Origin: Cliona cf. orientalis
Taxonomy: Eukaryota > Porifera > Demospongiae > Clionaida > Clionaidae
Direction of reading: 5' to 3'
Length of the DNA: 64,000 nt
Assembly (NCBI GenBank): GCA_963930775.1
Contig: OZ005694.1
Location: forward strand, 9,254,899-9,318,898
Below, one piece after another: positions 9,301 through 60,600 of this stretch. How positions within the stretch are numbered: the first letter of the stretch is position 1; each line of letters starts with the position of its first letter. Position numbers and translations under genes: made by a program. The notes below the pieces were generated by a model. That model made no database searches. It worked only from the letters and a program-made list of their open reading frames with translations, and was not told the DNA's origin.

Positions 9301-12300
9301 ACACATTGAAGATAATCAAGGAGAAGGTGTTGTATTTGCACTGGATGGGCTGGATGAATATTGCCCTGATAAGAAAGAAATGAATACTACCTTCGTACAC
9401 AAACTAATTAAAGGACAAATCCTTCCAAAATCTATAGTGATTGTGGCATCACGTCCAGCTGCTTCTCAGAAATATCGAAGAAGTGCTACCAAATGTATTG
9501 AGGTGCTAGGATTTTTAAAGGAGCAAATATATGAGTATATCAAGAGTTATTTTGATGGGAGGGATTCATTAGTGGCAGGACTTTCGACATACCTGGAGCA
9601 TCATCCCAATGTCATGCACATGTGCTACCTTCCCCTACACATGGCAATGGTCACATATCTTTATGAAGTTGAAGGAGCTTCTCTTCCTCAAACTGAGACT
9701 GAAATCTATCGCCACTTCACGCTTTCCACTTTACTACGATCTATTCGTAGGAGAAATGGCACAGAGATGGAAATTGATGATGAAGTATTTTGCTTATCAC
9801 ATTTTGATAATTTGGAGCCAGAGGACAGAGGCATATTTGACTCTATTCTTAAATTTGCTTATGAAGCCACTGTAGTCAATCCGCAGCAAGTCTTCTCAGC
9901 TGAAGAAGTCAAAAAATTCACCAATAGGCAGTTTAATAACACTGGAAACAATGAAAATTCACTTGGCTTAGTAGTTGTCGATAAGTATTTTGTCAAGTAT
10001 GGACTCAAGGAGATCTACACCTTTCTACATCTTACCTTTCAGGAATTCCTTTCTGCTTGTCATATTGTACAACTTGATTCTCGAGCTCAGGAGGCAATTA
10101 TTTTGAAGTATGGCAGTGATAAAAGCTTAGGAGTTGTTTGGAAATTTTACTGTGGAATGACACAGTTTTTCGGTGAAAAAATGCACAATTTCGAACAGTT
10201 GGTTGAAAAAACAAAATCTGAGGTGCTTCTTCATCTTCGCTGTGCTCATGAATCGCAACAAGATATCTTATGTACACACACAGTAAACTCATATGACTCA
10301 AAGATTGTTTTAAATTCATTGTCGCTCAACCCTGCTGACTTCACTGCTCTGGGTTTTGTACTCACTCATTCTAGCGTTCCTGCTACTGAACTTGCCATCA
10401 CTTCATGTAACATTGGTCCTGAAGGTCTCTCTGCATTGGAGAAGGCAGTCAATGTATCACCCCCTCCTACTCTGGAAACATTAAGGTGATTCAGTCTAGT
10501 ACAGCAGTGTATATTGTTATTGAAGTCACATTATTATATATATATACAACGAAACATAATTTTCAGAGCGACAATTTTCTTATACCGGGTAATAGTCCGT
10601 GTCCTAACCTGGAGGGCATAAAAGATGCACTCTCCTACAAGTTCAGAAGACTCACGATTGGTCAGAATTGTTGTGCCATGTGCACAAACGCGGTTGCCAG
10701 GGCCTAGGGGCCATAGAGATGCATTCTCGAGCTCAAGTGAGCAGCGCAAGCGCCGCGCGTTTCGACAGGCCTGCTCGGCAGGCCACCGAGCCTCGAGCGA
10801 AGCGAGAGGCGATATCTGCTCTTTATCATGGTCTGGTGATAGATTCGATGTTCGAGCGGAGTGAGAACATCGCCATTACACGGTGAGTTTGATCAGCTAC
10901 TCTTGGCCTGCAGTGAGGGGTGTGGTCTTCATCTGCGCATGCGCGCTGCTCTCGATTGTACTATAGCGTGCTGTTAGTAGTGTTCAGTCACATTATCCCA
11001 TGATTGTGACATCAAACATACTTACTTGTTATATAATAATAATATTATTTATGTTGCATATAACTTCTCCAGTTTTCACAGCACGAAGGTAAAAAAAGTG
11101 ATTCCTGAATTATGTAGTGTTTTGACGAAATTCCCACACCTGCATAAGCTTATGTAAGTAATTCATTGAGCAAATGTAGCTACATGTAGGTATTTACCAC
11201 ACTCTATTTCACTGTCTGTGTATTGTACACAGTTTCTCAAGCTGTGGCATCAGAAAGAAATCACTGAGTGAAATGTCTGCAATATTGCCAGCATTGGAGT
11301 CAGTAGAGCAACTGGAGTAAGTTGCCATAGTGTCCCAGGTAACCACCCATGCATACTTTCCTATTTTGGCCAGCATGCATGGGTGCTTACCTGGGATCAT
11401 ATAACTTCATACATTTTTTATATTATGCTGTTATGTTGACCCCTTGAAATGTGCTACATGGGGAGTGGGCACTTACCCAGGATACTAGTATGGTAATTGA
11501 AAGTTATAAGTAGCTACTGTAATATGATAGCCTTGCTTCTATCAGGAGCTTATGAGTGCTGCGAAGCGGTCCTCTGCTACCGTAAATCACGAATATTTTG
11601 TTGTTAAACTATTTTCAGACAGCCTGGCTTGTGCGAAAATTAAACGTATGAAAATACATGTGCAATATTAACGATAATGCGGTACAGGGTTGTTTGTCTG
11701 AAAATTATTTAATGCAAAAAATTATCGCATGAAATATTTTAGACACGAAATATTCACGATTTTTAGTACGGTATATTATTAAAACAAGTATAAAAACAAT
11801 TGAATAAAATTGAAGAATGAAGTAGGGATGGCAGGATCAAAAAGTACACAAACAAGAGATAATCGCATCTACTATACATCCCTACGCTTGCTTTTCTCGA
11901 CTATTGTGCACCTATTATCCATGGTTGACGTGTTTGTTGAGTGCGGTATGTGGGAGACATTCGTGCAGGTTGTTCCCTAGTTGTCATGATGGTTCGGGTT
12001 TATCAGGTTTGATTCAATCGCATTATTACTGATTATTTTTGCACCCATCAAAAAGCAAGCGTAGGGATGTATAGTAGATGCGATTATCTCTTGTTTGTGT
12101 ACTTTTTGATCCTGCCATCCCTACTTCATTCTTCAATTTTATTCAATTGTTTTTATACTTGTTTCTGTTATTTTTTATTGCACTTAGTGTAATTATCAAT
12201 GCCATCTTTCATGGTATGCTCACAACTTCTGATTAATTAAGTGGAAGATGGGAGGTGCGCAAAATTCTTTGCCACGCCCCTCATTGACTTGCGTTCATAA

Positions 12301-21300: not shown

Positions 21301-24300
21301 TATCACAAGCAGTAAGGCTTCCTCATCGACTCGATTGATTAAAGTATTAAGATATAGCCTAAAATAGATTATAAATTGCAAATTTTCTGTAGGGGGTCAC
21401 ACTCCCAGACTCCCCTAGAGACAATTGCATCTGATCACCAGTCATGCCCAAAAAATATAACTCTGAGTTACCCACATACATGTATCAACAGTTATTAATA
21501 CTAATACTTGTTCATGTACAGTCTCTCGAGGAACAACATTGGTATTGCTGGTGCTCAGGCCCTGGCAAAAGGTCTCCAGGATTGCACTAACCTTCAAAAG
21601 CTAAAGTGAGTGATCTAATACTATGTATTAACACAAAATAGTTATAGTGCATGCACATGGTTGTGATATTAAATTTATATTTGAATTCTGGATTACAAAT
21701 CATACTGTTATTTACATGTACAGTCTCGGTGTGAACAAAATTGAAGATGCTGGTGGTCAAGCTCTGGCAGAAGGTCTCCAGCATTGTACTAACCTTCAAG
21801 TGCTAGAGTGAGTGATCTGTGGGTTAACACAGCATTGTTATAGTGCATGCACATGGAGTGGGTTGTGATTTTTACATTCGATATGTACTTAAAGTATGAA
21901 TATGCTTCTTTGCTCACCATAGACACAGTGGGTTTTATATGTATGCGCCTATTGGTAAGAAACTCCGTTTGATACAGTTGTATATGCTAAAATATCAGCA
22001 TAAAATTGACCACACCCACATTATTATGTGGATGATAAGGAACACTACAAACAGCGACCAGGAAACAGATGGGAGCTTCTGCTTGATACAAATAAACCAA
22101 GTGATGCATTATGACATTGTGTAGATCTAGGCTGTATACATGACTGTACATGACCAACTACAAGTAATAAGCCCGGAAAGAATGTATGCACCCAAATCAA
22201 AGTTATTGTACCGTCAAGAATATTATAATAGAGATTATACTATGATACTCTTGGTATACGTGATTTTTGCTGGATAAAGATTTCGCCAAGCCCAGCTATC
22301 TTGGTATTGCAGAAATATTTGGTGGAAAATAAATTTCACCAACGTGGTAAAGGTCGCCATAATATTCTCTATGCAATCTTTAACAAAAGGAAAAAAATTT
22401 TAGCGTGATAAAATTTTGGCCAATGAGAGCAGGTGGCGAAAATTTTCTCCTGGCGAATATTTCTACGTATACAGTATGTGTAATTCCTAAACAATCCTCA
22501 CCTTCAGTATTCTATTTTGTATTTAATTGAGTGCACCATAGCATGTCAATTATTGCGATAGCTTGTGTATGCTGACTCATGTATAATATATCACAGAATT
22601 AGCTAATTGCCCTAATTAGCTATCACATGCAGGGCTGTACCAATTGGTCTATCCATCTATAAAAATTACCAGATCTCGAGATATAGACATCTTAGTGAGT
22701 GGACGATATTATGAAGTTGAAAATGGTGGTGTGACCAACTTTGCTTCTAAGGTCATGGCTACACAGCTTTTTGATTGGCCACACCTTATAATGCTATTTC
22801 AACTGCACATGCTCAAGCTAGCTAGAAGGGCTATCAAAATCATAAAATGATCTGTGAGACAGGGCCACCATGCTGCATGTGTTCTAGAGAGCTCTGTATT
22901 GAGCCAGTACTGTATGATGATGATGACATTTGATTATTTGTTCTTCAGCTTACAGCAAAATGCACTGACTGACAGCAGTATTGGTTCTCTCAGTCAGCTC
23001 ATAAGAACAGCCAAACAACTTAACAACTTGGAGTGAGTTGATGATGCCTATTCAATCATATTACTGTACTTCTTCTAAAAATCCACCCCTTCTAATTCTA
23101 ATTATTCGGCAACCTTTACCAAATGATTGAAAATAGCCCTAATTTTCGGCAAAGGTTATTATAAATAGTATAGCTCCATCTTTAACTAAACTGTTCAATC
23201 TAAGTATCAAGGTTGGCAAACTACCGAGTTCCTGGAAACTTTCAAATATTGTACCAATTCCTAAAGGTGGCGATCCATCCTCTACTTCAAACTATCGTCC
23301 GATTTCACTGCTCTGCATTATTAGTAAATGCTTAGAAACACACATCTTCAACGTGATACTACAACATCTTCAATCAAGGGACTACTCTTTTACCAACCAG
23401 TGGGGATTCCAGGCCGGGAAGTCAACCTCACTTGCCTTGTTATCTACCATTCATGATTGGCATCTCCATCTTGAAAATTCCACGGAAGTATGTGCTACTT
23501 TTCTGGATCTACGCAAAGCTTTTGATTCTGTACCACATCGTCAATTAATGGAAGTTCTAAGTAATCTTGGACTACCTAGCAGTGTACTGAAGTGGCTAGT
23601 CTCATACCTTACAGATAGAAAGCAAAGGGTGGTTGTAAATGGGTGCACATCCCATGAAAGTGTCGTCCTCTCTGGTGTTCCCCAGGGTTCGGTTCTTGGA
23701 CCTCTCCTATTTCTGCTGTATATAAATTCTATTCAGGATCTGAAGCTCTCTGCTGGAACAAGGATGATGCTGTATGCAGATGATATTTTGTTATACAAAC
23801 CCATCCACTCCGTGACCGACTACCAACAATACCAGTCCGACATCAATACTGTGTCAATATGGCTCAAGCACCGACATTTGAGCATCAATCCAGTGAAATG
23901 CAAATACATGGTGGTGACACGCAAAAGATTCAGTCTCGTGCAAACTTTTCCTCCAATTCTTATTGAAAGTACACCCATTGATCAAGTCTCTGAAATGAAA
24001 TATCTCGGCGTCACGATCACATCTGATCTATCCTGGTCCAAACATATTAGCAAAATCTCTTCTAAAGCCAGGAAGGTCGCAGGCCTCGTCTACCGAAAAT
24101 TCTATAAACACTTGGCAAGTAGAAAAAAAAACAATATTTTAAATAATTAATTCAGGGGGGAATTGGGAGCACTTGGGGACATAATTTTTGCACGGGCACG
24201 CAGAATGGATTAAATCTAGAGATTTGACCTTTAGGAATTTTGATTCACGCCTTAGAATTGAAGTTACGGCCCTTTAAAGTTTTCCCATATGTTTGTATAG

Positions 24301-38956: not shown

Positions 38957-39666
38957 GCTGTCCACCATGGTGGCTCTGGTTGAATTCGATGTAGCCGAGG
39001 CTCGTATCAATTGCAACATTCATTCTGATAAAACCCATCGGCAGCTGTCAAGTTCTAGGCTGGCCAACAGAAGACTCCATGCATATCACTCTATCATCGC
39101 AATGTCTCTGCTCCACCCTGCGCTGGTCATCCTCACACTCTTCATCGTGCTACGCCTTAGATCGATGAAAATCAAACTACCACTAAAGTATCACCACAAG
39201 CGATGCCACCATTCTTATTATGGTGCTGGTGTGGGTGGAACTACTGGGTCACAACTAACCTTGAAGACTCTAGTGGTGATGCTTAAGAAATTTGAAATGT
39301 ACCTCCTTGTGATACTACATGCATATCGCTCTGTCATCGCAATATCTCAACTTCATCCTGCACTACTCATTCTAACTCTATTTATCGTGCTACACATTCG
39401 ATCGATGTTTAATTTTCGAATTCACCTCAAACGATACCACCTTTCGTACAGTGCCAATGTGTGGTCATTCAAATTAAATATTGTTTTTCACCACAAGCGA
39501 TGCCACCATTCCTACAAAACTACTAGCTATGAGTCACGACTAACCTTGAAGACAACAGTGGTGATGCTCGGTTATGCAGAGAAAGACAAAATGTACCTCC
39601 TGGCGATTATACATCAATGTCTGATCATTTCTGGAGATGTGGAACTCAACCCTGGACCCCTGGGTG
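38957..39666 (+). CDS. NLR 2 exon: hydrophobic N-terminal region ending in a 2A-like sequence
   Basis: 233 codons plus one base (donor GGGTG|GTGAGC, phase 1). Near the end, GDVELNPGP (39633-39659) fits the 2A consensus D-[VI]-E-x-N-P-G-P exactly; the predicted ribosomal skip is between G (39654-39656) and P (39657-39659). Upstream there are two related halves of about 100 residues: each has a LLHPAL[VL]ILTLFIVL hydrophobic helix, a Ser-Met after it, HHKRCHHSY, LTLKT-VVML and MYLL. Such 2A sequences are known at the N-terminus of sea urchin and sponge NLRs, where the upstream part can act as a signal sequence when skipping fails. The helices here could serve that purpose (inference). Confidence 0.8.
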
Positions 39667-42600
39667 GTGAGCAAATAATATTACACAGAGCAGGGTTCTC
39701 CCCACACTGGCCTAGTGGTGACTATAGTGATGCCATGGACTTGTAAACTGTGATTATTAGGAAATTAGTGGTTGTAGGCATGCCCAAAGCATGACCGTGA
39801 GGTTATGTAACCATTTGTAGTGCACCACAGATAGGTGAATGGTGGTAAATTTGAGTAGTTTCTGGACTAGTTAACCCTCGGTGCATGCGCCGCAGGGTTA
39901 CGGTAGTCGTTCTGTGTGTCTGTGTGTCTTTGTGTGTGTGTGTCTGTCTGTTACCAGGCTAGTTGCTACATACCTTATTTATACGTTGAAAGCGAGGTGT
40001 CATTAGGTTTCTCGTGGTGATTTTAACAAATGAAACGTGTAGAATTTGTTGAAAATGCTTTATTCAAAAGTTACAGCGACATTTGCTGATCACCTCTGCC
40101 TTCTTCGCTTCTTGATGAACTCTCAATGGATAAAAGTGACAGCGATGGCTTCTTTTCCAAAAGACTAGGATGTAGGACTAACGATAGGTCTTATAACTCG
40201 ACTGACTCATCACTGATCACAGTAGACCCTGAACGCTTCTTGGCTTTCTTGTGTAGCACTATAGCTAGCTAGCAAATGCAACTGCTGATCAGGCACGTGA
40301 TGATCATGCTACGTATTACATAATCCCTTGCCATTGCACATGATAAATAGCATATTCTATATTTATTTATAGGCTTTGGTAAAAATAGAGTACACCATAA
40401 AAGGCTAGTGCACGGTATAGCGCATATATACTGGCATGTATATAGATCTTTTCTCATTTGGCATAATGATATTACATCGAAGCAAAATTATAGGCTTAAT
40501 CAGTGACCAGTTTAAAACAAATTCATGAAAGCCGAGGGTTTCGTACCATTAGTGCTTCATTTTGAGTTAGCAACTGATCTGTACCAGAACTGATTATTCC
40601 TTTACCTGAACTGACTATCTGCATACAGATCTCAGATTTACTCTGGGGAAAACCCTGACACAGACTAGGAGTGTGCTATTATATAAAAATATTATTATAT
40701 GAGCATAACTATATTGTAAGCATAAAGGGGGTGGACACCTCTTAAATATTATAGTCATCATATTATTTTTTATTATGGTTATAAAATTAATAATAATATT
40801 ATTATTATGAGCTGGTATGAATATTTATATGATTTTTAGTGTTGGATTTGCGGAGTGTAACTAACGAGCTTGTCTCTGTGATGGCCAAGTGGCACACCAT
40901 TGGAGTTCAGCTGGGTGTCGATCCAGCCAAACTCGAGGAGATTGAAAGCAACTATCAAACAGCTGACAGACGCTTCTCCGAAGTGATCAAGTTCTGGCTA
41001 AGGGGGAACGCATCAGCAGCTGTAAGCTGGGAGTCACTAGTGGAGGTCTTAGAACGACCTTTTGTTGGTGAGAAAGGACTGGCCAAGATATTGAGGGAGA
41101 ATGGAGGAATGATCGTCAGCGAAACTGTGGTCGTAGCACCCGGAGCTGCTGAAAGTGGAGTACAACCACAGGAGAATAATGGAGGCCAGAGAGGAAAGAA
41201 GAGGTCTGTGGAACAGAAATTGGATGATAGCGGGGATCAACATCATGAACATCAAGGTGCATATGCTAGTATAATATTATAGTAGCAGTCAAAAAAATGG
41301 TGACGCTTCCGTTCCGTTCCGCCCCGTTCAGACGCTGTTCCACCTCCGTTCTGTATGCACGCGTGCATAATTAGTAATTGGGCGTGGTCTTTCGATGTGT
41401 AAAAAAAAAGGAAGGCCAGCTCGTCAACTCGCCGACTAGAATCAAGAGTTTATGGTCTTCCAAATTGTTCTGGGGCAGTTCACTATTGCCGCTTTTTGAT
41501 TTTGAGTGAGTTCTGCGATCGAGGCTCAACTGGGTTTGAAGTCTGCTATCGACGATCGATTGATCGATCTCGCATTGCCAATCGACTCTGATCGCCTCCA
41601 AATATGATCGCTTGGATAGAGCAATGCTTCTTTTGGCTTTCTTAAGGTTCTTGAGGCATCATTTTCGTGCTAGCTACGATTGGAACAGTTGACTGCATTT
41701 TCCATTGCGTCGGCCTCCACCCGTCCCGTTTCCATTATTGTGCATGGGGAATGGCCGTTTTACTTCCGTCTCGACGGGACGGAACGGAACGAAAACATCA
41801 CCTTTTTTTGTCTCCTACTGTATCTTCGTGTACTACTCTATAATAATATTGATTATGCATGTGGATATTGCCATAGTAGAACGATGATACCGCGGAAATA
41901 CCACTCGTTCATTGCCTTTTGTGTTCTTACTCGTGACAATACTCGTAACAATACGTGGCAATGAACTTGTGATATTTCCAGGTATCATCGTTCTACTGTG
42001 GCAATAAGTATAATAATATACATGACATTGTAGTACTACTGTATGATAAAAGCATGAGTGTATATCTACAAAATGCTAAATTAGAACAGCGTACATACGG
42101 CCCCATTGCCCAGGCATGAGAATGTGCAATGGAATATTTTGCGTGACCAACGTACCATAATATATACTAGGGTGATGTAAACCATTGAGGGGGTGAGCGT
42201 TTGCTCACAGCATAGTAAAGGGCAGAGGAGGTTGGACATGACGCACATTTATGCCGTAGTCACATGACCTTGGTATGCAAATATGCTGCCATGCATTCAA
42301 AAGAATGCCATTTGCAAGTGTAGCTGGTACCTAAAATGTTTGCGTTTATGAACAATTGCCAAACCTGAAGCTGAAACGGAGATGAATCGTGTAGATCTAA
42401 TGTTGTAACAGCAAAAGAAGCTGACTGTTTTTGATGTTGCCATTCTGAGGAACGAATTTTCTCGATTTGCAAGAATTGTGAGGGGTGGACGGGCGGGGTA
42501 TGGTGCTGGATCTTATTTTCTCATGGATTTCAACTTGCTTTCACATGTAAAACTCATCAAGGCTTTAGATCGTGACTTACATTTTGTACAGTATTGTATA

Positions 42601-45600
42601 TGGGGCAACACGCCCACTTTTTGTGCGCACGTGATTGTGTCCAACCTCCTCTGAGTAAAGGGTTGCCCCCTCTATTATCTTCAATCCAAAGTGCATGTAC
42701 AAGTAGCCATTATCAATAACTGAGCACAATCTAATAGTTAGAGACCAAGTCCAAGGTCTCTACACATTTTTAGATCATAGCTGTAACAAATACTGCAATT
42801 TGATTGGCTACTGACAGGTATCTATATCTCATAGTCACTTACAAGCTTCTCATAGTCACCTACAAGATTTTCATAGTCACCTACAAGTTTTGCCCTCTGG
42901 CTCTTAGCAATACAAGCTATTATGATCTAAACTTGTTAGACACTGTTTAGTCGGTTTCTATGTGATTTAGAAGACCTCAGGGCTCTCATAGAACCCTCGC
43001 TTCGCTCGGGATTCTATATAGAGTCCTTCAGTCTTCTAAATAATAGTTAGAGACCAAGTCCAAGGTCTCTACGCATTTTAAGAGACCCGAAGGCCCGAGG
43101 CTGTAGCATCCCGAGCGAAGCGAGGGTGCTACTAAGGGCCTGAGGGTCTCTTAAAAGCGTAGAGACCATTGGACGAGGTCTCTAACTGGTTTAGAATATA
43201 GCAACTGTAACCGTGGTAGTTGACCTGAGGACTAGGCTACTGTTGCACTGTGCATCTTTCTTTGCCCTTGGCTATACTTGTAGGTCTCTATGAAACTTGT
43301 AGGTCTCTATGAGAACTTGTAGGTCTCTATGAAAACTTGTAGGTCTCTATGAGAAATAGAGACCTCTGAGTGTCCAATCAGATCACAGTATTTGTTACAA
43401 CTATATATTCTAATGTTAAACAATTGTGTACCACATTCCCAGTATGTCGGGAGCTTTGGCCCCTATGAGGCTACAGAATTGTCTGAGCTAGTATAGCTAG
43501 CTTGCCAGTTGGACCCACATTTGTAGCTGATTACAGAAATTAGATCATACCTAGACTTAGACTACATGGCCTTGTTGCTGTAGAAACTTTTCTTGTGTAC
43601 TGATGCCTTACCTTTGCTTGTTTTCTAGCTGTCTACTCAAGCTGGATGCGAGCACTCGAGCTGCATTTTTTGGCGAGCTACATTTAGAGTTAGCACGGCC
43701 TACATTGACGATCTTTACTGCAATGATTTATGTGCATGCGCTATGAGCTAGCGAACACGTGGATGACGTATTGCTACATACATACATACATACATAAGTA
43801 CAGCGATTTTCTCGTAGTACTGAATAGTGTAGGACTCGCTCAGGCTCGCCCCAATTATATACAATACACGTACAGCTGTACCGTTTCGGTGCTGTGAGAT
43901 TTATTGGGGTGAGCCTGAGAGAACCCCACATAGGGTTTGGCACCAGTGGTATTCATTATTAGTGGTAGATTAGTACAAACAAACATGCATGCAAATGTAT
44001 GTATGGTTGTTAATTATCTTCTAGTGTTGCTTTGAATTATCTCATTTATATATATCTCCGGCATAGTTTTGTAAAAGTTGACATTTTTGATAAGCTCTAC
44101 CCTAGAACTGCACTACTAGCGGCAAAAAAGTTTTGATTCGTTGTATGCATCATTGAACGGCAGTACGCCTGGTGTGAGCTAATGTTAAACGGAACCAGGA
44201 CTGTAACTAGCCTCATCCCCAGGCCTTCTGAGGGGGAGAAGGAGAGAAGGCGTGGTATCCACTGTATGCGCATGCGCTGTTTATTCAGATTTTGAATAAT
44301 CCCATTACGTACGGATGCTGCCTAGTATACTTGCCCTTTGACCTTAATTCATCGTGCTCAACATACTTAGAAATGGCAGGCTTAGACAGTTCAAGTTTCG
44401 AGCGAGATTTTGAGGTACTGTAGACTCTGGTTATTAAGCGCACCCCGCTATTAGGCGCACATTTTTTATTAAGTACATGCTCTCTTCTCGTCACAAGCTA
44501 TTGTTTATTAAGCGCATGCGCTTAATAGGCGTGGCGTTCTATGAACCTGACCTGACCTTGACCGGCTGGAAAGTACCGTATAGCGGGAAATTTTTGTGGG
44601 GTTTAAATTTCGTCAAAAATCTGATCAAGCCGTCAAAATTAATTTTCGTGGTTTTAATTTTCGTGACTGTCGAACCAGGAAGAGCGGCGCTGCGCACGCT
44701 TGCCATGATGATGTAATTATTTATAATCGCGCGCGACGTGCCACGCGTAGCGCGTGTACGTATAGCTACGTACACGCCTTCTCTGACATCCATGTGACCA
44801 AGATCGAGCTAGCGATGGAGAGATTTTGCATTGACTCTTGTGTGCGAGGATACCACGTTTACAGTGACATATGGGGCGCTAGTGTTGGTGAAGAGCTGCC
44901 ATGTGAACGCGAGGATGGAAATAGTACCAATCCTTTTGCTGTCGCTATCAAACGGAGTGGAGTGATTATTGGTCACATACCAAGGAAGATCTCTTCGGTT
45001 TGCTCTTTATTTTTGCGGAGAAATGGAGTTATCAAGGTAGAAACGACAGGAGGGAGGCGATATTCAGCAGACTTATCTCAGGGGGGCCTTGAAATCCCGT
45101 GCACGATTACATTTGAAGGTGTTGAAAAGGACGTGGAGAAGGTGAAAAAACTGATCAGTGCTACTTTGACACCTCCCACTGGTGATGAGAACTTGCCACC
45201 AGACAACAAGAGAAGAAAGATCGACTCTTTGGTTGATAGAGACTCGGACAATGAAATGGCGGAATGGATGAGATTTGGTTGTCTTGTCCTCACCCAGCAT
45301 GACAGAAACATCCTAACTGGACAGGAGCTCTCAGATAAGCATATTGATTTTGCTCACACCATGCTGCGATCACAATTTCCGATGTTAAACGGCTTGCAGT
45401 CAACATTGTTCCAGTCTCGCTCACAAGGATTCAAGTCAAGCATGAATGCAATACAGATTATCCACTCTCGCAGCAATCATTGGATTGTAGCTACAACTTT
45501 ACAATGTGACCCTGGGGAGGTAAAAATCTATGATTCTGTATATGAATCGTTGGACACAGAAACACTCGAAGTGGTGAAGAGGTTATTTGGCAGTGAAAAC

Positions 45601-48600
45601 GACCCGCTAACAGTTTCCATGGTCACTGGGGCACCTAGACAGCAAGGGAGCACCGATTGCGGTGTATTTGCCATAGCAGTTGCTACCTGCCTGGCATTTG
45701 GTGGTGATCCGACAAAAATGATGCTTCATCAAGCGACCATGAGAAGTGAGCTCCTGAAGCGCTTCGGATCGAAGCAACCTACCCAGTTTTAGCTATAATA
45801 AATATTATACAGCATAATAATCATCATCATGTAAATCATTCGATTTTAAAAAGAATGTGAATCAGATAATGATTTAAAAAAGATTACTTAATGTGCATAT
45901 ATAACACTGTACTGTATAATGGGTTTGGAGTTAGTCCTTTAGGCTGTCCAGTATGCCAGCTGCAGAGAAACCATTTACAATGAAGGATGGGTTGGAACTC
46001 AGGTAGTCGTACATTTCTACCAGCCAACGTGCACCAAGAGGTTTCATGATGCTCAGTCTCATATCAACTTGCTGGGTGTTCACCTGCTGAATGTCATCTT
46101 CAAGCTGAGCAGCAATCTGGTTGGCAAACCACTCCTGAAATTTTCTTCGAAGGAATTCCTTATCTGGTTTGTTCACATTTAAGTCAAGGGGCTGAAGTCG
46201 ATCGGTGCAGTTTGCTGGCACTAAAACACGTTCAATATGGTTGTCTTCAAGCATCTTGAGCACCTCCTCTGTGCACTGACCCTTGAATGCATCAAATATC
46301 ACTAGTGCAGAGTGATCATCTTCCAGACCTAGCTGTTGCCTCTTCTCCTTCACATATGGTAGGATGATTTTTTCGATGTAGGCCTTAGTTGTTTGTTCAT
46401 TAGCCCACCTGTTGGGAGTGTACATTATACTCCAATCATCAGGAAAAGTGAAGGTAAGTAGACTTGCTGCTGTCTTGCCTTGATAAATCACCTGGATTGG
46501 GAGGAAGTCACCGACAGCTGTAGCAGCAAATACAGCCGTAATCTGACGCTTATCTTCAACACTGGCAATCTCGACTCTTTTGGCACCTTTCTTCTCCATC
46601 GTCCATTATGATACTGGAACAATTTTTATTCCCGTTTGATCCCAATTGATTACTAACTCGGGTGGAATATCCATCATCTCGACCACCGCCTTGATGTCAA
46701 AGAGATACTGGGTTTTCTGAGCCTCAAATTGCTCAACGGCAACCTTAGCCTTGGTGTTTCCTTGTCTTTTGACAAATCCCATCCTGTGAAGAATAGATTT
46801 TGCCCAGTTTTTCTCGAGTTCAAGGGGACCACCTTCTTCTTTCAGTAGTGACCTATCTCGCTTGCGAACAACTCCCATAGCTACTGCAATGGCAATTGAT
46901 GTGTTGACAACTGCTCCACTGTCACGCATGGCTCTGATGATGGTCTGCACTTCAGCATCAACCTTTTCCCCGAGCAAGAAAGGTCTACCTCGTTTTTTGC
47001 CAGATAGATGACTCACGACTAAATCACACCCTGGTTCTGCTGATCTTCGTTTGTTCTGTAGCTCCTTTTTATAAGCCTTTACCCAATCTCGAACAGTGGT
47101 CTCCTTTAGCTCTCTACCGAGCTCCCCTCTAAATCTTCGCATAGCAGCACGAACTCCATGGACGCTGCCGTACTGGGCTACTCGCGCCTTCTCCTCGGGT
47201 GTGAAGGAGAGATATGAACCTCGTTTTTTCTTCTGGGCAGCGGTGACCGACTTTACTTCTTTGTTAACTTCAGCGAGGACGCTCGGAGCAATCGTACGGG
47301 ACAGAGGGCCTTTGGAGTCAAGAACGTCATCAGCTGGTCGACAGTAGCGATAAAGGGACATCTGAGCCATTCTTCGTTAACACTCAGGGTTGAGCTACAT
47401 ACGTACCAGGCCAGCTCAGTGTTGGCCACACCTACCGACCGATCCTTAGCGGTTGTGCGTGTCTGCATATTGGTAGTCATTAAATTCCATGGGTGGAAAA
47501 TTTTGTCACTCTGGATCAACCGCGAAAATAACGAAAATTAGCACCCCACGAAAATTACCTGCCATACGGTATATGGAGTCCAGATATCTTTGGAGAAATG
47601 ATGGCCATATCATGCAAGAAGATCGAGTTTCAGACAAATCGTCAGCACTCGTTGTCTTGAACGGCAGCTATAAACACTAAAGTGCTCGATCGATCGAGCC
47701 AGCTAGCACTAGCGCGAGCGGGCCTCGCATCCATCACGTGCCCAAACGTTTATGGGCGTGGTTATGTGCCATATAAGCGCATATCCTGTATTAAGCGCAT
47801 ACTGTCGTTCCGTTTACCGCTATAAAGCACATGCGCTTATTAACCAGAGTATATGGTAGTTTGAGTGATGTCCATCCGTCGATGAAGGCCTCTGAACAGC
47901 GTGGGCACGTGTGTAGTGCAATCGCTAGTACAAAGGTCAGGAGGTCATCCTACATTCTTTAGACATAATGTGGACCGTTTCACTTGTCAGCACGTGGTAG
48001 GAATTAGTCACTTTTACGCGGAAAATGTAGCGCATGTGCAGTGGCGTAGCGGAGGGGGGGGGGCTGCTCAGGGTGCTCAAGCACCCCCTTCTGCTCTTGG
48101 CATAGTTCACATAGTCCATAGAACAGCCTCATCCAGCACCCTTAGCAGGTATAGTCAGAATCCAAATATGGATGAAAATTTCCATATAAAATCATCCATG
48201 TTGGATGATTTTTAACTGATATGTCAAAATCATCCATATTTGGATGATTATTACATAGCTTTCTCTATAGAGAGGCTGATGTCACCTATAATCATCCAAT
48301 ATTGGATGATTCTATATTGGATGTGACCATTATTGGATGCTTTGTGTCATCACTTTCTGGATGAAACTTATATGATACAATAAGCATCCATTGTTGGATG
48401 TAACTTGTCATCATTTTCTGGATGAAACTTGTACAGTACAATTATCATCCATTGTTGGATGTAACTTATCATCACTTTCGGGATGAAAATTACGTAAAGA
48501 AACGATCATCCCTTACTGGATGATTCTTGCCATCACTTTCTGGATGAAACTTATTCGGTACAATTATCCAGATGGCCTGGGGATGAGGCTAGACTGTAAC

Positions 48601-51600
48601 TCACCTGCAAGTTTGAGAGAGCTTGCACAGTGCACTTTATTCAGGATTTCGCTGCATGCACAGAAACTGATAAAATACGGTCTGATGGCGTTGCTACTGC
48701 ATGGGTGGAGCTGTTCAAAATATTAATGGAATTATGTGACTATTGTCATATTGGTAGCATTCTATGTACATGACTACGTCTAGCTAATTGAGACCCAGTG
48801 CTAGATTGTATACAGAAGACTAGAGGCCTCATTGAATTTTGTTTGCTGCAATTGTGGTCACTTGCATTGATCCTCTACCTCGTGGTGTCACCTCTTATTT
48901 ATCATGAATATATTCATGTATGCATTATAGCAGCTGTCATCAATGTTCTTGAAAGAAGTTCATGTTGACTACAACGATAAAAGCGCCTCACATAGATTAC
49001 CCGCCATAACAAATACCCCATGTGTGTGTTCAAAGGATAAAGCAATCAGTTTTGTCTGTCTGTCTCTGTCAGGACGAAAATCGCCAGATCTGGAGATCTA
49101 CGCATCTGAGCCACCCATAAAGAACAAATCCATCAAAAAATTGGTTCCGTTATGCTTCGAATCATGTTGCAAGGCCCACAAACATCATAAGTACTGTATT
49201 TTTGTTGGCCATGACTGTTGACCCATGTGCTTTCTGCTCATGTGCCCAATATGTAGGTAAGGATCGTCAGCTACAGGGGCATGCTTGCATGCTGCTGCAG
49301 CTCTCATCTCTATGCAGATAGATGTGGATGCAGATGCAACGCACGCGTGGAATGTGCTTTAGAGGGCTAGACTTGTACACATAGGGGTAGGGGTTCGAGG
49401 GGATTCATCCTTTTGGCCACCTAGCCTAGCACAGCACTAAAAACAATCCAGGTGTAACTTACATGCTTCTTTATGCAAAACAATTATTGCTTTCCGCCAT
49501 GTTAAATTAGCAGAGTGTGAATAGCTATCACATGCAGCACAGTGTATTTGCTCAAGGGTGGAGTAATGGGGGTGGCTGAGTGCCTTCATATTCTACTACT
49601 ATTTATAATAACAGTACAGATCACAGCAAAGTTGACAAATTCGTATGTGTAGAGTGCGGGTGACACACGGGTATCCATAACATAGGGGTCAGAACCGGGG
49701 GGGGGGGGGGGGGAGCCCAGCTTCCCCCCCACTTTTTTAGGCTGACACACCCATTTTTGCCTTGTGCTAAGCAAAAATAGTGAACTTGTCAATTTTACCT
49801 GTCTGCAATAGCCTTCTGTCAGCTGTGAGTCAAAATTATGCAAGTTTCTTCGCTGCTCTCCTTGAAATGGACTATTTTTGCCTGTTCATCATTTCTTCAT
49901 TTTCGCCATTAGTTTCACGAACACATTATCATTAATTAATGGGTATGGCTTAAAATTATACTGCTTATTGGCCTCCTCACATTCAAAATGTTTGCGGCAC
50001 CTATGCATAATGCACTTGCAAGGCCTCACAGCTTGTATACGGCATGCAATTGCCTTGTACCCAGTGCATGCATGAGCTAATAAAACTCCTTACGGACCAT
50101 TTCAATATATCGCTATATATTTCATAGGCGTAGGAATAGGGGGGGCCGGGGGGGCCATGGCCCCCCCAACCCTCTGACTGGCTGCTGGCCAGAAAGCCCA
50201 AGATACAGCCTATCAACAGATATTTCACAGATCTGACTGAGTCAACTCATAAAATTTTATGAATAAACTCAACTTACTGCTCGTTCTACAGCCAGAAAAC
50301 CTCTTGCTTCACTGTCACACAGCCTCGTTGATGTAAAGATGGGCGTGGTCAAAACTTTTCGCGCGCACTTTGCGCGCTGTTTTCTTTTGGCCCCTCCAAC
50401 CTTATGTATGTTCCTACGCCTATGTATTTAACTTCAGAGGATTTTAATATGCCCCCCTCCCAAATTTAATCATAACCCCCTAACTTTATAGACCATCCGT
50501 ATGTACATAAAAGTTACAGTTAGTTAGCTTGTATGGTACTATTGGGATAATAATTTAATTAAATTTATAATAGTTGTCCGTGCAAAACGTCCATTGGAGA
50601 AATCAGCTGAGGAACCAGCAGAGAAGCGTCCTCGACTTGAAGGAGGACTTAGTGAAGCGGAGGGTGATTCTCACTCGGCCAATGTGGCTATAGATAATAA
50701 TCTGTTGAAACATCGACCAAAATTGTCTGCATACTATTCCCACCAACCTGAGATTCCTCAGGATGCATGGCCACCAGTCAACAAGACACAGTATATAAAA
50801 TTGGCACTCATTAGAATAGAGCGACCAATTGACCATAACAAGGAATTTTTGCGTCACACAATTCGTGGTTCTATCGATGATATCTTGAAGGACAAGGATG
50901 ACATTAAGTATGATGAGGTGTTTGCAGAAGTGGAGCAGGGTGCTCGGCTATTGTTCGAAGGAAGGCCCGGGTGCGGCAAGACAACCGTGATGAACAAAGT
51001 ATCTCAAGACTGGGCTAAGGGTAAGATCTTCTCTTCATGTCTGCTCTTCTTGGTTCACCTACGGAGGTTTGGAAATCGATCAGATATCGATTTTGAAACT
51101 GTTCTTCGCTCTACTCCTGTTGAATTTTCTGATGAAGAATTTCAAGAACTAACTGCACAGATTGGAAGCAATCAAGGGAAAGGCATGGTATTTGCCCTGG
51201 ATGGGCTGGATGAATATTGTCCTGAAAAGAAATATAAGAAGACAACTTTCATACACAGATTAATTAAAGGAGAGGTCCTTCCAAAATCTATAGTGATTGT
51301 GGCATCACGTCCAGCTGCTTCTCAGAAATATCGAAGAAATGCAACAAAATGTATTGAGGTGCTGGGATTTTCAAAACAGCAAATATATGAGTATATCAAC
51401 AGTTATTTCAATGGGAACAAGAACAAAGATTCATTAGTGGTAGAACTTCAGACATACCTGAAGCATCATCCCAATGTCATGCACATGTGCTACCTTCCCC
51501 TACACATGGCGATGGTCGCGTATCTTTACGAAGTTGAAGGAGCTTCTCTTCCTCAAACTGAGACCGAGATGTATCGCCACTTCACATTTTCCACTTTAAT

Positions 51601-54600
51601 ACGATCAATTCGTAAGAGAGATGAGATGGAGATTGATGATGAAGTAGAATTTTTTTTTCAATCTTTTGATGATTTGCAGCCAGAGGACAGAGTTGTATTT
51701 GACTGTATTCTTGAACTTGCTTACGAAGCCACTGTAGTCAACCCACAGCAGGTATTCTCAGCTGAAGAAGTCAGAAAAGTTACCAGTAGACGATCCAACA
51801 ACACTGCAAACAGTGATAATTCACTTGGTTTAGTAGTTGTCGATAAGTATTTTGTCAGGTATGGACTCAAGGAGATCTACACCTTTCTACATCTTACCTT
51901 TCAGGAATTCCTTTCTGCTTGTTATATTGCACAACTTGATTCTCAAGCCCAGGAGGAAATTATTTTGCAGTATGGTGGTAACAAAAACTTAGGTGTTGTT
52001 TGGAAATTTTACTGTGGAATGACACAGTTTTCCGATGAAAAAATACGCAATTTCGAGCAGTTAGTTGAACAAACAAAATCTGAGGTACTTCTTCATCTTC
52101 GCTGTGCTCACGAATCGCAACAAGATATCTTATGTACACACACAGTAAACTCATATGACTCAAAGATTGTTTTGAATTCATCGTCGCTCAATCCTGCCGA
52201 CTTCACTGCTCTGGGTTATGTGCTCACTCATTCTAGTGTTCCTGCTACTGAACTTGCCATCACTTCATGTAACATTGGTCCTGAAGGTCTCTCTGCATTG
52301 GAGACGGCAGTCACTGTATCACCCGCTCCTACTCTGAAAACATTGAGGTGATTCTAGACTAGGTTGATGTTATTGTACTAACTTGATTATACCCATAAAT
52401 TTCCCATGCAGTTTTCATGGCACAAAGGTTAAGAAAGTGATTCCCGAGTTTTGTAGTATTTTGACGAAATTCCGAGAGTTGCATAATCTTATGTAAGTAA
52501 TTCATTGAGTAAAAGTAGCTACGTAATTGCCACACTCTATTTCACTACATCTGTGTGTTGTACAGTTTCTCAAGCTGTGGCATCATAATGAAATCACTGA
52601 GTGAAATGGCTGAAATATTGCCTGCATTGGAGTCAGTAGAGCAACTGGAGTAAGTTGCCATTAATTGTTGCTTCCAAACCTATTATTTCACGTCACATGT
52701 TTGCCCCAGCCAAAATCTGGATGTGTATTTTTTCTATTATAAGAGTCAATTTTTGTTATTAACCCTCGGCGCATGCGCGAGGGTTACGGTAGTTGGTTTG
52801 TGTGTCTGTCTGTCTGTTATCACGCTAGCTGCTACATACCTCGTTTGCAAGTCCAATTTGCAGTGTTATAAGGTTCCTTATGGCGTTCCAAACGCATGAT
52901 TTGTGTGGATTTCTCCGAAAACGCTTTGTTTGCCAGTTTTAGCGTCATTTGCCGATTCTAAGCTTCTTGACTTTGCCCGACCTAGCGATAGCATGACTTA
53001 ACGTATAAATAGGTTGCGCGCTATATACGGTATGTACGTTTATTAACCCTCAGCGCATGCGCAGTTGCATCAATCCTGTTGCTCAGTCCACTAGCGAGCT
53101 TTTGACGATCACGGGCTTCTTTTCAACTCTAAGTCATAGCTTCTAAGGCTTAGCTGCTAAGCCTTAGAGTTGAAAAGAAGCCACTATCATCATCCCACAC
53201 TAAGCTGCCTGTATTTTTATGGTACCCTTTGACTCTCTGGCTTGTATGCATGCATGGCATTACAGTGCTTGAACCCAAGTGAGTTGTGATAATATTGGAC
53301 ATGCAATATTGCTCAGTGTACTTCAGTCTTGTGCCAAGGCTTTGCATCATAGTCCTTCAAGTTAAGATGTAGCTAGCTAAGTCCCCAAGAATTGGAGGGT
53401 AGGCTACAGTGAGGGAAGTTGAGTTGATCTCGACGCCACAGTGTGGAGTTCAATACAGCACACTAGGGTTATTGCTGCTATGAGCTGTTGCACCTTGAAT
53501 GACACTGCTGTGCAAGTATAACATTATCCTCATCCCTGTCTCGCCCCGGCCCCAGCCCTTTAGTTACCTCCTTTTCTGCATGCAACTGTTGAAGCATTTA
53601 GCTAATGTCATGCAACACGCCAAGGGTTTGTGCTCAAGAGAGCTCTAGTTAAGAGTAGTAATGTGAAATTTTTTGCCTGATTTTAGCTTATCATGTAATG
53701 ATTTTGGCGTAAAGTCCGTAGACGTTCTCCACAGATTGTTCACAAAATTACCAAAGCTGAAGAATCTCGTGTGGTGAGGCAATGCCATCAGCTTTGATTG
53801 CAATGTGTTACTTTCATTATAATACTATGCAGGGTTGATGGTCTACTTACTTCATCTTTATTTAATAGCTTGATAGCAAACAATATTGGAATCAGTTTGT
53901 AAGTGTATTATAAGTGTCGAGTCAATGCTAGTATACCTTTTATGTGTTTGTTTTTTGCTAATAGAGTGGCTAGCAAAACCTCCAAGAGCCCCAAGCAAGA
54001 GTTATTTAGGTACAATAATTAAAAGCTAACATTATAAATGTGATGCTCACTTTTATATGATTATTTTTCAAGGTTTGGTAATAGTGGTATCAACTTCAAT
54101 TCAAGCTACTTTCAAGCTCACCCTTGTAGTGCAGTCTTTATTCAAGACCTTAAGTAAATTGGCAGTGTAGTTTTAATGTACAAATTATACCATATGGCAG
54201 GTAATTAACCCTCGGCGCATGCGCGAGGGTTACGGCAGTCATTCTGTGTGTGAGTGGGTGAGTGAGTTAGTGTGTGTGTCTGTTACCGCGCTAGCTGCTA
54301 CATACCTGTTTTATACATTGAAAACAAGGTGCCATTAGGCTCTTTGTCGTAGATACAATATATGCATTGTGTGGATTTTGTTGAAAATGCTTTATTCAAA
54401 AGTTCTGGCGACATTTTCTGACCACCACGGCCTTCTTCGCTTCTTGTCCAGCTCTCGCTCGATGAAAGAGACACTAACCGCTTCATTTCAAGAAGATTAG
54501 TGTGTAGCTCAAGCGATAATTCTTGTAACTCGACTGACTCATCACTAGTCACAGTAGGCTATCAACTTAGCCTCGTCCCCAGGCTCTTTTGGGGGAGGGG

Positions 54601-57600
54601 AAAAGAGAGCCTGGTAACGACTGCATGCGCATGCGCCAAAATCTCCGTATACTATCAGTGGACTACTTGATTGTATACTAACTAGTAAAGCCCAATAGTC
54701 ACCCAAGCACTCGAAAGTATCTTGCCATCGGCTAGTGATGGTGTCTAGGAGACTTAAATGAGGTAAATCAATCAAATGTTGATTTTCATCCCCTCGAAAG
54801 GTCGTTCTGTTGTGAAAACTGGCTTACCATGTTTTATTGGTAAGAGTTCGCGCATGCGCATGCAGTTGTTACCAGGCTCTCTTTTCCCCTCCCAAGAGAG
54901 CCTGGGGACGAGGCTAGCTATCAACTATGCTTCTTGGCTTTACTTTGTACTAGATCTGCTGATCTGCACGTGGTACTATTATGTAATACCGTGCAATCAA
55001 TAATGCATTCTTGTGGTTATAGTTACTCTCTACAACACTGCTAACAGCAACATTGTTGCAGGCTTAGCTTGCAAATTTGCAACATGTAGACTAGTCACTA
55101 CTGCAGTAAATCTCACAGTGCCGAGGATTTAGCACCAATGGTGTTCATTTTAATGGGGTACTATTTCATTATTTCTATTGAAAATTTTCACCCATGCAAA
55201 GCAACGTCTTACAGTGCATGTCGAGGAGCAGTAGCTAGTATAGCACACACACGGAAGCTATTAAGGTGGGGGCATGGCTCCGTAGACTGCAGTCATATAA
55301 CAAGTTTAAAACCATAAAAATGAGCTTACTCTGATTTTTTGCAAAAATTAGCACCCTCGATAATTGCCCATATTATACAGATAGATTGATATTGTCCCTA
55401 TAGCTATAATATTATATGCACATACCATACGGGAGTAGTCCAGCCGCTTCAGGGCTTTTTGAAGCGGGGTGCTATATAATGATCAAATTGATTTGTAATA
55501 AGTAATCTAACTCTTTCATGCTATTATTTACACATGCAGTCTCTGGGATAAAAGCATGGATGATACTGATGCTCAGTCTCTGGCAAAAATTCTCCCACAT
55601 TGTATAAACCTTCAGCAATTAGTGTAAGCTATAATTATTAGCATTGTCAGTGGTTTGACATGCATATTATGTTGTGGTACCATGCATCCCTGCTCTGAAT
55701 TTAGCTGTCAAGTTATCGTAATGCATTCAAGGTAGTGATTGTCTTTAAGTAGTACATAGTTACCCTGCGCGCATGGGCAAGGGGTAAAGTAATTGGTTTT
55801 GTCTGTCGTTGTCTGTCGTCGTTAGCACAAAAATCGCCTGATCTGGAGATCCAGTAAGTACAGCATATCCGTCGATATCGTCGAAAAACTGGCTTCATTA
55901 TGCTTCAAATCATTTGGCAAGGTCCATGAGTGTTGCCAATACTGCATTTTGTTGACCACGCCTATCAATACTACCCACCATGTGCTTTCTGCTCATGCGC
56001 ACAACCTGGCCTGGCACAATTTGTAGGTAAAGGTCATCAACGCTGCAGCGCGTGGGGTATGTGCTCTATAGAGCTCTAGTTGATCATAGTATTGACGCAT
56101 CATGTCCACCCTACCCCCCTTCCCCCCCCCCCCCCCCCCAAATTCTATGTAATATAATAATGCATTGCTCACATGTAAATAATAATTGTTTAACCCTGAA
56201 TTGTTCATGTATCAACTAAAACTTGTTCATGTACAGCGTCATAAATAACAACATTGGTACTGCTGGTGCTCAGTCTCTGGTAGGAGGTCTCCAGCAATGT
56301 ACCAACCTTCAAGAGCTAAAGTGAGCGTATGTTTAACATGTTATAGTGCATACACATGGTTACAATTTCATAACTAAAGCTCTATAGAGCACATACCCCT
56401 CGCACACATTGCACAATCTATGGAGTTGGTTTTGTGTGCATGGCTATAATAATTTCGTGAACTTCAGAAAATTAGTGGAAATGCTGCTTAATTGTACGTA
56501 GCTACCGGAGGTCTCGGTGACAAAAAGCACTCTCTCTGCACCAGATCTAGACTAGCTAGCTACTAGGAGATATGAACTGATACTTCCAATACTTATTATA
56601 ATAGTATAGCCATTTTACATTATGATTTAGCTCCATAGGGCTGCAGATTTCAGCTCTGGCGGATAGACTAAAGATTTCACGAGCATTATTAATTTTGACG
56701 ATCTTTACCAGTCATATTCTTGGCTACTTGGTTGTGCGCATGAGCAGAAAACATAATGGGCATGCATTATGCATTCAGTAGGCACTATCGAAAGGCGTGG
56801 TTACATTAGCTAACAAAATGGCACTATTTGTGACGCCCATGGACCGTGTCCATCCATTTGACACACAGTGAAGCCAGTTTTTCGCCGAATTCGATTGATT
56901 CGTTGTGTTTACAAGTCACTTAAATGCCTACATCTTGAGATAAGGCGATTTTTGTGCTCACAACGACAACGACAACGACACGACCGATTATTTTACCCCT
57001 TGCGCATGCGCGCGGGGTAATAATTATAGCGATGTTGCTTATGTTTAAATTGTTTAACCCCGAGTTGTTCATGTATCAACTAAAACTTATTCATATACAG
57101 TCTCGAGGGAAATAGCATTGGTACTGCTGGTGCTCAGTCTCTGGCAGAAGGTCTCCAGCACTGCACTAACCTTCAAAAGCTAAAGTGAATGATCTGTGTA
57201 TTCACATAAGTGCATGCACATGATTGCATTGACATGATATTGCTCATGTGACACTATACAGTCTCTATGGGAACAAAATCAATGATGCTCAGGGTGCTCA
57301 GTCTCTGGCAGAAGGTCTTCAGCATTGCACTAACCTTCAAAAATTAAAGTAAAAATGTTTATGTTGACTCATCACATTTATTTTGTGTGCCGATCTGTCT
57401 TACTATAATTATGGGAAAGATCATTGTTTCTCTTGACAATGTGGTGATAACAAAGGATGCATTGATGATAATTTTAGTTAAGCATGTTCAAAGTGCACTC
57501 TTGGTTGAGTTTATGTGCCCCTCGCATAGAACATGATGGCCTTGGCCAAAATGTGTTATAGTTATGATTCTGATGCAACCAATAGTCACATGAATCCTAG

Positions 57601-60600
57601 ATCAAGAGTTGTGATAATAGTTGCTTTATTGTTCACATACAGTGTCGGATACAACAGTATTGGTGATGCTGGTGCTCAAGCTCTGGCAAAAGGTCTCCAG
57701 CACTGTACTAACCTTCAAGAGTTGGAGTAAGCACCCTGAATTGATACACCACCTCCTGTGTTAATTACCCCACACACATGGACAAGGGGTAAAGTAGCCT
57801 TCAGCCTATAATTATATATATACAACGAAAAATATTTTTCAGAAGATCAATTTTCTTATATAGTCCGTGTCCTAACCTGGAGGGCATAAAAGATGCGCTC
57901 TCCTACAAGTTCAGAAGACTCACGATTGGTCAGAATTGTTGTGCCGTGTGCACAAACGAGGTTGCCAAGGCCTAGGGGCCATAGAGATGCATTCTCGAGC
58001 TCGAACGAGCGGCTCAAGCGCCGCGCGTTTCGACAGGCCTGCTCGGCAGGCCACCGAGCCTCGAGCGAAGCGAGAGGCGATGTCTACTCTTTGTCATGGT
58101 CTGGTGGTAGATTTGACGTTTGAGCGGAGTGAGAACTTCGCCATTACACGGCGAGTTTGATCAGCTACTCTCCAGTAAGGGGTGTGGTCTTCATCTGCGC
58201 ATGCGCGCTACACTAACTGGCACTCGATTGTACTGTAGCATGCTGTTACTAGTGTTCAGTCACATTATCCCATGATTGTGACATCAAACATACTTGTTGT
58301 AATAGCACTATGTTATTAATCCACCAATAACTGATCATGTGCTTGCTGCGATACTGAGCTACATACCTCTGTAGAGCATATACCCCGCATGCTCTGTAGC
58401 GTAGTATTGAAATGCTCTACTGCAGAGTTGTTTTATGACTTGACGACCCTTTCCAACACTGAGTTTGCGCATGCACAGTCGCATCAGCATACTATGCTAA
58501 AGAGTGGGTGTGGTCAATAAACCACAGACATACTGAACAGAAAATGCATTATTTGTAGCGCTAGTAAGCCTTTTGAGCAGTTTGAAGCTCATACAAACCA
58601 GTTTTTCATTGATATCTACCAATTGATTGTGCTTTCAGCATGCACAGATGCCTAGAACGTGAGATCTGGTGATTTTCATGCCGACAATAACGACGACAAC
58701 AGACGGACAAACCGATTGCTTTACCCCTTGCACATGCGCGCAGGGTAATTGGCTTACGTAGGGAAAGTCATTATATAATACTGTTTGAAGGGAGTACCCC
58801 AGGATTTTCCCCTAAGATTACATTCTAAACCCCCCCCCTTAAAGTCTTACTAATGCTAATTGAAGTGTTATCACAAGCAGTAAGGCTTCCTCATCGACTC
58901 TTAATATTTGGTCTAACTATAGTCTAAATAGATCGTAAATCACAAAATTTTCTGTAAGGTGGGGTGGGGGCATGCTTGCAGACTCCCCTAGAAACAATGG
59001 TGTTTGAGATATACATCATGCCCCCGCCTCCAATGTATCAATAATTAATACTTGTTCATAATATTATACAGCCTCACAAGTAACCACATTGGTGATGCTG
59101 GTGCTCAAGCTCTGGCAAAAGGTCTCCAGCACTGCACTAACCTTCAAAAGCTAAAGTGAGTGATCCGAATTGTATCCCACACACACGGACAAGGGGTAAA
59201 GTAGTCTTCAGCCCATGTAGTAGTACTATGTTGTTACTCAATCATTGGTACAAAGCTTGTAAAATCTGGAGGTCTATCATTAATGGGGGCTCGTCCCCCT
59301 TTGGCACCCACTAGTATTATTTTCCATCACATTATGCTACACACCTGCATACATGCCACAATAATATGTTTTATTGATCATGCCTATTGATCGCATCAAG
59401 GGCTTATAGACCCCCTCAGGAAAGAGGATCATACCAATAGCTGATCATGTGCCTTCTGCAATATGTACTGCCAAATAGCATATTATGTGGGGAAAGATCG
59501 TTAAATTTTTAGAAGGGGGAGCCCCAGGATATTCCTTTAATATTTGATTCGAACCCCCCCCCCCTTTAAAAAGTCATACCAATGTTAATTGTAGTGTTAT
59601 CACAAGCAGTAACTTAAAGGCTTCCTCATCAACTCGTAGATTGTAAATCACACGCTCCCCGACTCCCCTAGAGACAATTGTATCTGATCATAAATCGTTC
59701 CCAAAATTATAATCCTAGTTACACATGTACATGTATCAACTAATACTTGTTTACGTACAGTCTCTGGGGCAACAACATTGGTGATGCTGGTGCTCAAGCT
59801 CTGGCAAAAGGTCTCCAGCACTGCACTAACCTTCAAGAGCTAAAGTGAGTGATCCGAATTGTACCCCACACACACAGACAAGGGGTAAACAGGGTTTCAT
59901 TTAGGATTTTTGTCAAGGGGGGGCAAACGCGAGAATTCAAGAGTTAAGGGGGGGCAAAGACTATAGTATGTTTATCCATCTGTGAAGAATGACATTGTGC
60001 TCATTAACTTCATTACATTAGGGGGATTAGGGGGGTCTGGGGGTATGCTCCCCCAGGAAATTTTTTAATGTTTCAACCTCTGAGACTGTTTCTGGTGGCT
60101 TCTGAGCACTCGGATGGGGAAAGTCTGTCAGTAATATCTACTGGTTCCCCTCTATTTCAAGTCGAATGTTGCAAGGATGTGGGATGTGTCTCTTACTGCG
60201 CGTAGCGCGAAGCTTTAGCTAATTTATGGCTTAAAAATAAGCAAAATTGCTTTGGACACTTTTACCAGTTAAATCTTTAACTTGTGCATGTATTGCATGT
60301 ATGGATGGTGGCTACTTTCAAGGGGGGGGGGGGGCAGCCAGCTTCCAAGGGGGGGGGGGGCGAGTGACCCCTCCCCCCCCCCCCCCCTAAATGAAACCCT
60401 GGTAAAGTAGTCTTCAGCCCATGTAGTAGTACTATGTTGTTACTCAATCATCGGTACAAAGCTTGTAAAATCTGGAGGTCTATCATTAATGGGGGCTCGT
60501 CCCCCTTTGGCACCCACTAGTATTTTCCATCACATTATGCTACACACCTGCATACATGCCACAATAATATGTTTTATTGATCATGCCTATTGATCGCATC

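Follow-up and report, generated by a model that had tools for sequence, protein, structure and literature searches.

A stretch of 64,000 nucleotides of the sponge Cliona cf. orientalis (contig OZ005694.1, positions 9,254,899 to 9,318,898, on chromosome 6; hereafter, the window) carries a candidate receptor gene of the NLR type, in which a leader exon, a death-domain exon and a NACHT exon follow one another on the forward strand (Table 1). The leader exon ends in a StopGo/2A ribosome-skipping motif. The codons at 39633–39659 (GGA GAT GTG GAA CTC AAC CCT GGA CCC) encode GDVELNPGP, an exact match to the 2A consensus, as an earlier note made from the window's letters had read it, and contain the full octapeptide D(V/I)ExNPGP of StopGo/2A cores. 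The DNA pattern for DVExNPGP has a single match in the window and none in 100 shuffles; these shuffles, together with zero matches to the reversed patterns genome-wide, exclude a chance motif. The hexapeptide before the core, CLIISG, fits, as judged by eye, the L-rich (A/S/C)G class described in PMC12846837.

Coding begins at an ATG at 38967 (CCACCATGG context; nearest in-frame stop 42 nt upstream), and position 38957, which the earlier note had given as the start of the exon, is at best a possible splice acceptor. The leader contains two 19-residue hydrophobic segments (about residues 43–61 and 123–141), and its exon closes with a phase-1 donor, G/GTGAGC, after 39666, one base into a codon. 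Further splice signals are an acceptor before 40840, a donor after 41256 and an acceptor before 50574. The phase-1 junctions place the 2A core inside one genomic frame that continues downstream; joined in silico, the three exons give 964 codons, followed by the stop that closes the NACHT frame.

Table 1. Features of the candidate receptor gene, in window positions; introns are predicted from sequence
Feature	Position	Strand	Remarks
Leader exon 1	38967..39666	+	233 codons plus one base; 2A tail
StopGo/2A core, D-V-E-L-N-P-G/P	39636..39659	+	Residues 224–231; CLIISG directly before
Intron 1	39667..40839	+	Phase 1; donor GTGAGC, acceptor TTTTTAG
Death-domain exon	40840..41256	+	Phase 1-1; Pfam Death E 2.9e-4, just under cut-off
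Intron 2	41257..50573	+	Phase 1; contains transposon-type genes
NACHT exon	50574..52348	+	Pfam NACHT E 1e-22; open to 52348, 3' limit provisional
Possible further LRR exon	57530..57727	+	NSIGDAGAQALAKGLQHCTNLQELE, by eye

The NACHT domain places the predicted product among candidate NLRs. The window's death domain, at 21.3 bits, falls short of the Pfam cut-off (22.6); a profile built from ten related death domains, this one included, matches FADD death domains in the PDB (E = 1.1e-4), and a structure model from the single sequence is of low confidence (mean predicted local distance difference test score (pLDDT) of 50.7). The end of the NACHT exon resembles leucine-rich repeats (LRRs), under the cut-off (LRR_6, E 0.019), and this exon should splice onward to downstream LRR exons. 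Open reading frames (ORFs) at 59651–62254 and 60008–61407, with a repeat spacing of about 1.2 kb, are suggestive of tandem repetition in the gene's 3' part. Within intron 2, the ORFs at 44584–45789 (+) and 45934–47376 (−) encode a Ulp1-type protease (Peptidase_C48, E 6e-6) and, beside another ORF that lacks a good match, a DDE_1 transposase (E 3e-11).

The genome (216.79 Mb in 149 contigs, with leader copies placed by chromosome) contains 13 places that match the leader: ten near full length (80–100% identity, the window counted) and three partial. Throughout the ten near-full-length copies the 2A core is kept (nine with V, one with I), as are a phase-1 GT donor, which in three copies lies one codon earlier, and the acceptor of the death exon; a relative of the window's death exon follows, and the donor of that exon (GTGCAT, GTACAT or GTACGT) is again in phase 1. 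As far as predicted splice sites can tell, all ten copies thus agree with the earlier note, which had placed the motif at the end of an exon joined in phase 1 to a death domain. One full-length copy on chromosome 3 (L024) has an in-frame TGA, and in another copy (L022) a single open frame spans leader, intron and death domain. The ratio of nonsynonymous to synonymous substitution rates (dN/dS) in the leader is 0.25–0.38 for eight intact copies compared with that of the window, and averages 0.41 over all pairs of nine copies (range 0.25–0.71; L024 excluded). Identity to the window is 74–92% over the final 300 nt of the leader and, from +20 to +170 past the 2A, 45–50% in 8 of 9 copies (88% in the chromosome-6 duplicate); unrelated pieces of the window aligned in the same way have a mean identity of 46% (range 32–53%). 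Because identity falls to the unrelated level past the donor, the exon ends at the position first proposed. By these measures the leader is a conserved exon under coding constraint. An internal duplication in the leader exon (39074–39167 and 39314–39407) repeats a hydrophobic segment, and the duplicated pieces cross-match their counterparts in the chromosome-6 copy at 78–80% DNA identity.

Genome-wide, we found 105 DVExNPGP and 47 DIExNPGP cores, 152 in total, and none for either reversed pattern. With any residue allowed at the second position, D-any-E-x-NPGP gives 155 sites (1 in the reversed control), of which 152 have V or I; G-D-(V/I/M)-E-x-NPG, with the final Pro relaxed, gives 152 sites (control, 0). 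The first 100 sites of this relaxed pattern, compared by eye, are the same places as the V/I-type cores, so each of them has Gly before the core and Pro after it. By these pattern counts the 2A core is near-invariant. Some of the 152 cores sit in a mobile element. Two loci on chromosome 1 near 18.01 Mb (L042 and L043) represent a dispersed element in which DIEVNPGP follows a leader with multiple hydrophobic segments and shares its reading frame with helix-turn-helix repeats (HTH_28, E 5e-10); an additional ORF weakly matches DUF6570 (E 0.02). This element may be Helitron-like.

Proximity to death domains was counted for 147 sites (100 of the 105 V-type and all 47 I-type), against death-domain places obtained with three probes, keeping the best 150 matches per search (425 distinct starts; 367 after merging of overlaps). 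A same-strand death match lies downstream of the 2A within 3 kb at 109 of the 147 sites and within 1.5 kb at 97, compared with 1 site that has such a match upstream within 3 kb and none on the opposite strand. Extending the limit to 5 kb gives 110 downstream, 7 upstream and 0 on the opposite strand, with a median 2A-to-death distance of 324 bp (110 sites). Random placement over 1,000 runs yields a mean of 0.59 and a maximum of 4. NACHT matches (188 starts, overlaps unmerged) lie within 5 kb downstream at 17 of 147 sites and upstream at none; at 20 kb the counts are 21 and 8.

Further detail comes from 28 distinct 2A exons: the eight first-listed V-type sites, the window, and others picked for their leader or a nearby NACHT. 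All 28 end, by eye, in SGD(V/I)ExNPGP, with an L/I-rich stretch directly before it in all but L007. The donor is in phase 1 by pattern in 25 and by eye in the other three (GGAG/GTAT), and 25 of the leaders contain a hydrophobic 19-residue segment. Single-linkage clustering of blastp matches sorts the leaders, stripped of their tails, into six groups, so the 2A tail is common to otherwise unlike leaders. A death domain, detected with a profile built partly from the same loci, lies behind 25 of the 28 exons (6 of the 8 first-listed ones), and none was found at L005, L007 and L036 in the DNA examined.

What follows the leader and death exons differs among copies. NACHT stands behind them in two, both on chromosome 6, one of which is the window. 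Four chromosome-4 copies are followed by ankyrin repeats (L025, L026 and L030 by Pfam, L029 by eye), and a further one on that chromosome (L028) by another helical exon, for which all Pfam matches are under the cut-off. Three chromosome-3 copies lead to Roc/COR-like bodies with weak Pfam matches under the cut-off (COR-A 0.003, Roc 0.004 to 0.06), and two of these have a weak second Death match. A related leader (L035) precedes a TRADD-like N-terminal domain (E 1.7e-6) and then ankyrin repeats. Symmetric phase-1 exons would make shuffling among such bodies easy. The framing of the motif in the earlier note as a feature of NLRs therefore holds for two copies and is too narrow for the cassette as a whole. 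The second copy on chromosome 6 has leader, death domain, several intron blocks and NACHT arranged as in the window, beside scattered repeat matches, which supports the link of the window cassette onward to its NACHT exon; the transposons within the intron are not the same, the window having a DDE_1 transposase and the second copy, by eye, a Tc1/mariner-like one. At the level of genomic DNA, this order supports the death–NACHT part of the in-frame death–NACHT–LRR arrangement that the earlier note had proposed; its LRR part has the LRR_6 match under the cut-off.

The window lies in a same-strand array on chromosome 6 (about 8.97–9.78 Mb) of at least 26 NACHT exons that belong to a single family. 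The window's other NLR (5994–6449, 8504–10486) has a CARD-like exon before its NACHT exon (Pfam E 0.0038, under the cut-off) and no 2A, so N-terminal modules vary within one array. A reverse transcriptase-like ORF, with YADD recognized by eye, lies at 23143–24150 (+).

We consider it probable that the window encodes a death–NACHT–LRR receptor and that its first exon acts as a detachable StopGo cassette, splitting a leader from a cytosolic receptor. We infer that the exons are spliced in vivo, that skipping takes place and that the leader inserts into membranes. The ribosome would first make a leader some 230 residues long, in which two segments are of membrane type; at the hydrophobic tail L-I-I-S-G-D-V-E-L-N-P-G the Gly–Pro bond would be left unformed and the leader released, and translation would resume from Pro to give the cytosolic receptor. 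A minor unseparated fraction would form a membrane-anchored fusion, and the arrangement may serve to set the amount or place of receptor signalling. Given the L/I-rich SG class of the hexapeptide and the skipping known from sea urchin, the most likely outcome is that the leader is split from a receptor that begins with Pro, while a small part of the product stays fused.

N-terminal 2A sequences on NLRs are already known from sea urchin. Roulston et al. (2016; PMC4981915) reported them in the N termini of SpNLRs, in 85 of 241 NLRs, and the Cliona gene resembles SpNLR2A in its N-terminal 2A core, its predicted death–NACHT–LRR order, its hydrophobic upstream part and the presence of many genes. 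The 14 sea urchin 2A sequences tabulated there span 26 residues; the window leader, by comparison, has 231 residues to the end of the core and two hydrophobic segments, and forms an exon of its own, which sets it apart from a short leader of about 26 residues. Unlike sea urchin SpNLR2A as described in that paper, the Cliona 2A exon stands in front of ankyrin and Roc/COR-like genes as well. The Cliona system thus appears to differ in a long, constrained leader, in its own shuffled exon and in use beyond NLRs.

StopGo has been described as largely viral and rare in cellular genes by Li et al. in a recent structural paper (PMC12846837), who assign hexapeptides of this L/I-rich, SG-ending kind to L-rich motifs 2 and 6, the latter active in reticulocyte lysate; a 2024 paper (PMC11512398) includes NLRs among cellular carriers of 2A. 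With the viral L-rich SG class the Cliona motif shares Gly at p11, Asp at p12, an L/I-rich hexapeptide and the full octapeptide (PMC12846837), whereas it lies in a host gene at the end of an exon rather than in a viral polyprotein and is known from sequence alone. The sponge Dysidea avara (PMC12909245) likewise has expanded death–NACHT–LRR families, some with transmembrane domains in their models; the text of that paper contains none of the terms 2A-like, skipping or polyprotein. The earlier note had cited 2A-like sequences in both sea urchin and sponge NLRs. The former are on record, and for the latter we found no report among the matches listed, which comprised titles and abstract openings and did not cover the survey of Rao et al. 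2025.

A variant of the cassette reading, with odds that overlap with it, is dual targeting in the sea urchin style, in which skipping is deliberately partial and the exon serves to direct a share of the receptor to the membrane or into the secretory pathway. SpNLR2A6 is reported to skip at about 80% in vitro, with the leader acting as a signal sequence that takes the unskipped form into the secretory route (PMC4981915), and translocation of some upstream sequences into the endoplasmic reticulum can inhibit 2A (PMC2978324); the hydrophobic segments in 25 of the 28 Cliona leaders examined fit such a route. However, a core that hardly varies suggests that efficient skipping is selected for, a targeting signal seems to need less than constraint over 230 residues, and the first hydrophobic segment begins near residue 43. 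We regard deliberate dual targeting as rather unlikely.

Several points weigh against a detachable cassette on the window receptor. The exons, introns and joins of the gene are known from genomic DNA alone; intron 2 is 9.3 kb long, contains transposon-type genes and ends in an acceptor with a weak pyrimidine tract. In the proximity counts, the death probes derive from 2A loci, tandem copies are common (grouping at 100 kb leaves 80 clusters, of which 49 have a death match), 38 of the 147 sites lack a death match within 3 kb downstream, and upstream matches appear at the wider limits given above (death at 5 kb, NACHT at 20 kb). Among the 150 best Pfam Death matches, none is preceded within 3 kb by a listed 2A, so a general coupling of 2A to every death domain is not supported and the coupling is restricted to particular death-domain lineages. 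Finally, a listed 2A stands within 20 kb upstream of just 2 of the 29 closest NACHT relatives, 28 of which lie on chromosome 6 and the other on chromosome 8.

The long intron with its transposon-type genes, the scarcity of 2A near related NACHT exons and the occurrence of the cassette before ankyrin and Roc/COR-like genes would all fit a separate small gene of leader and death domain, or a 5' part used for other bodies only, left unspliced to the window NACHT exon. We think this improbable: the death exon has a phase-1 donor in all ten copies, both chromosome-6 copies lead to the same NACHT exon type with intron blocks in the same order, and a death match lies about 70 bp upstream of two further NACHT exons on chromosome 6. 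That the motif is a non-functional relic, or was brought by a transposon or virus, is highly improbable, since, although the dispersed chromosome-1 element also has DIEVNPGP, the core is nearly invariant despite synonymous changes, the ten full leaders each have a death exon behind them (with three partial copies besides), which makes transposon spread unlikely, and one scan of viral contigs found no relative of the leader.

Beyond the window, we tentatively propose, as a possibility short of even odds, that StopGo is a host-encoded, exon-shuffled operon device, in which unlike membrane leaders (at least six groups) are paired one to one, through a common 2A tail, with cytosolic death-domain receptors (NLR, ankyrin or Roc/COR), each leader functioning, once released, as a partner of its receptor. 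If so, some sponge NLRs annotated as membrane-bound would be mis-read two-protein genes, and the finding bears on the membrane-bound sponge NLRs reported in PMC12909245. If the sponge cores work, they would represent a large natural host use of StopGo in immune-type receptors, at a great distance from sea urchin in the animal tree, and the purpose of host 2A sequences would become directly testable.
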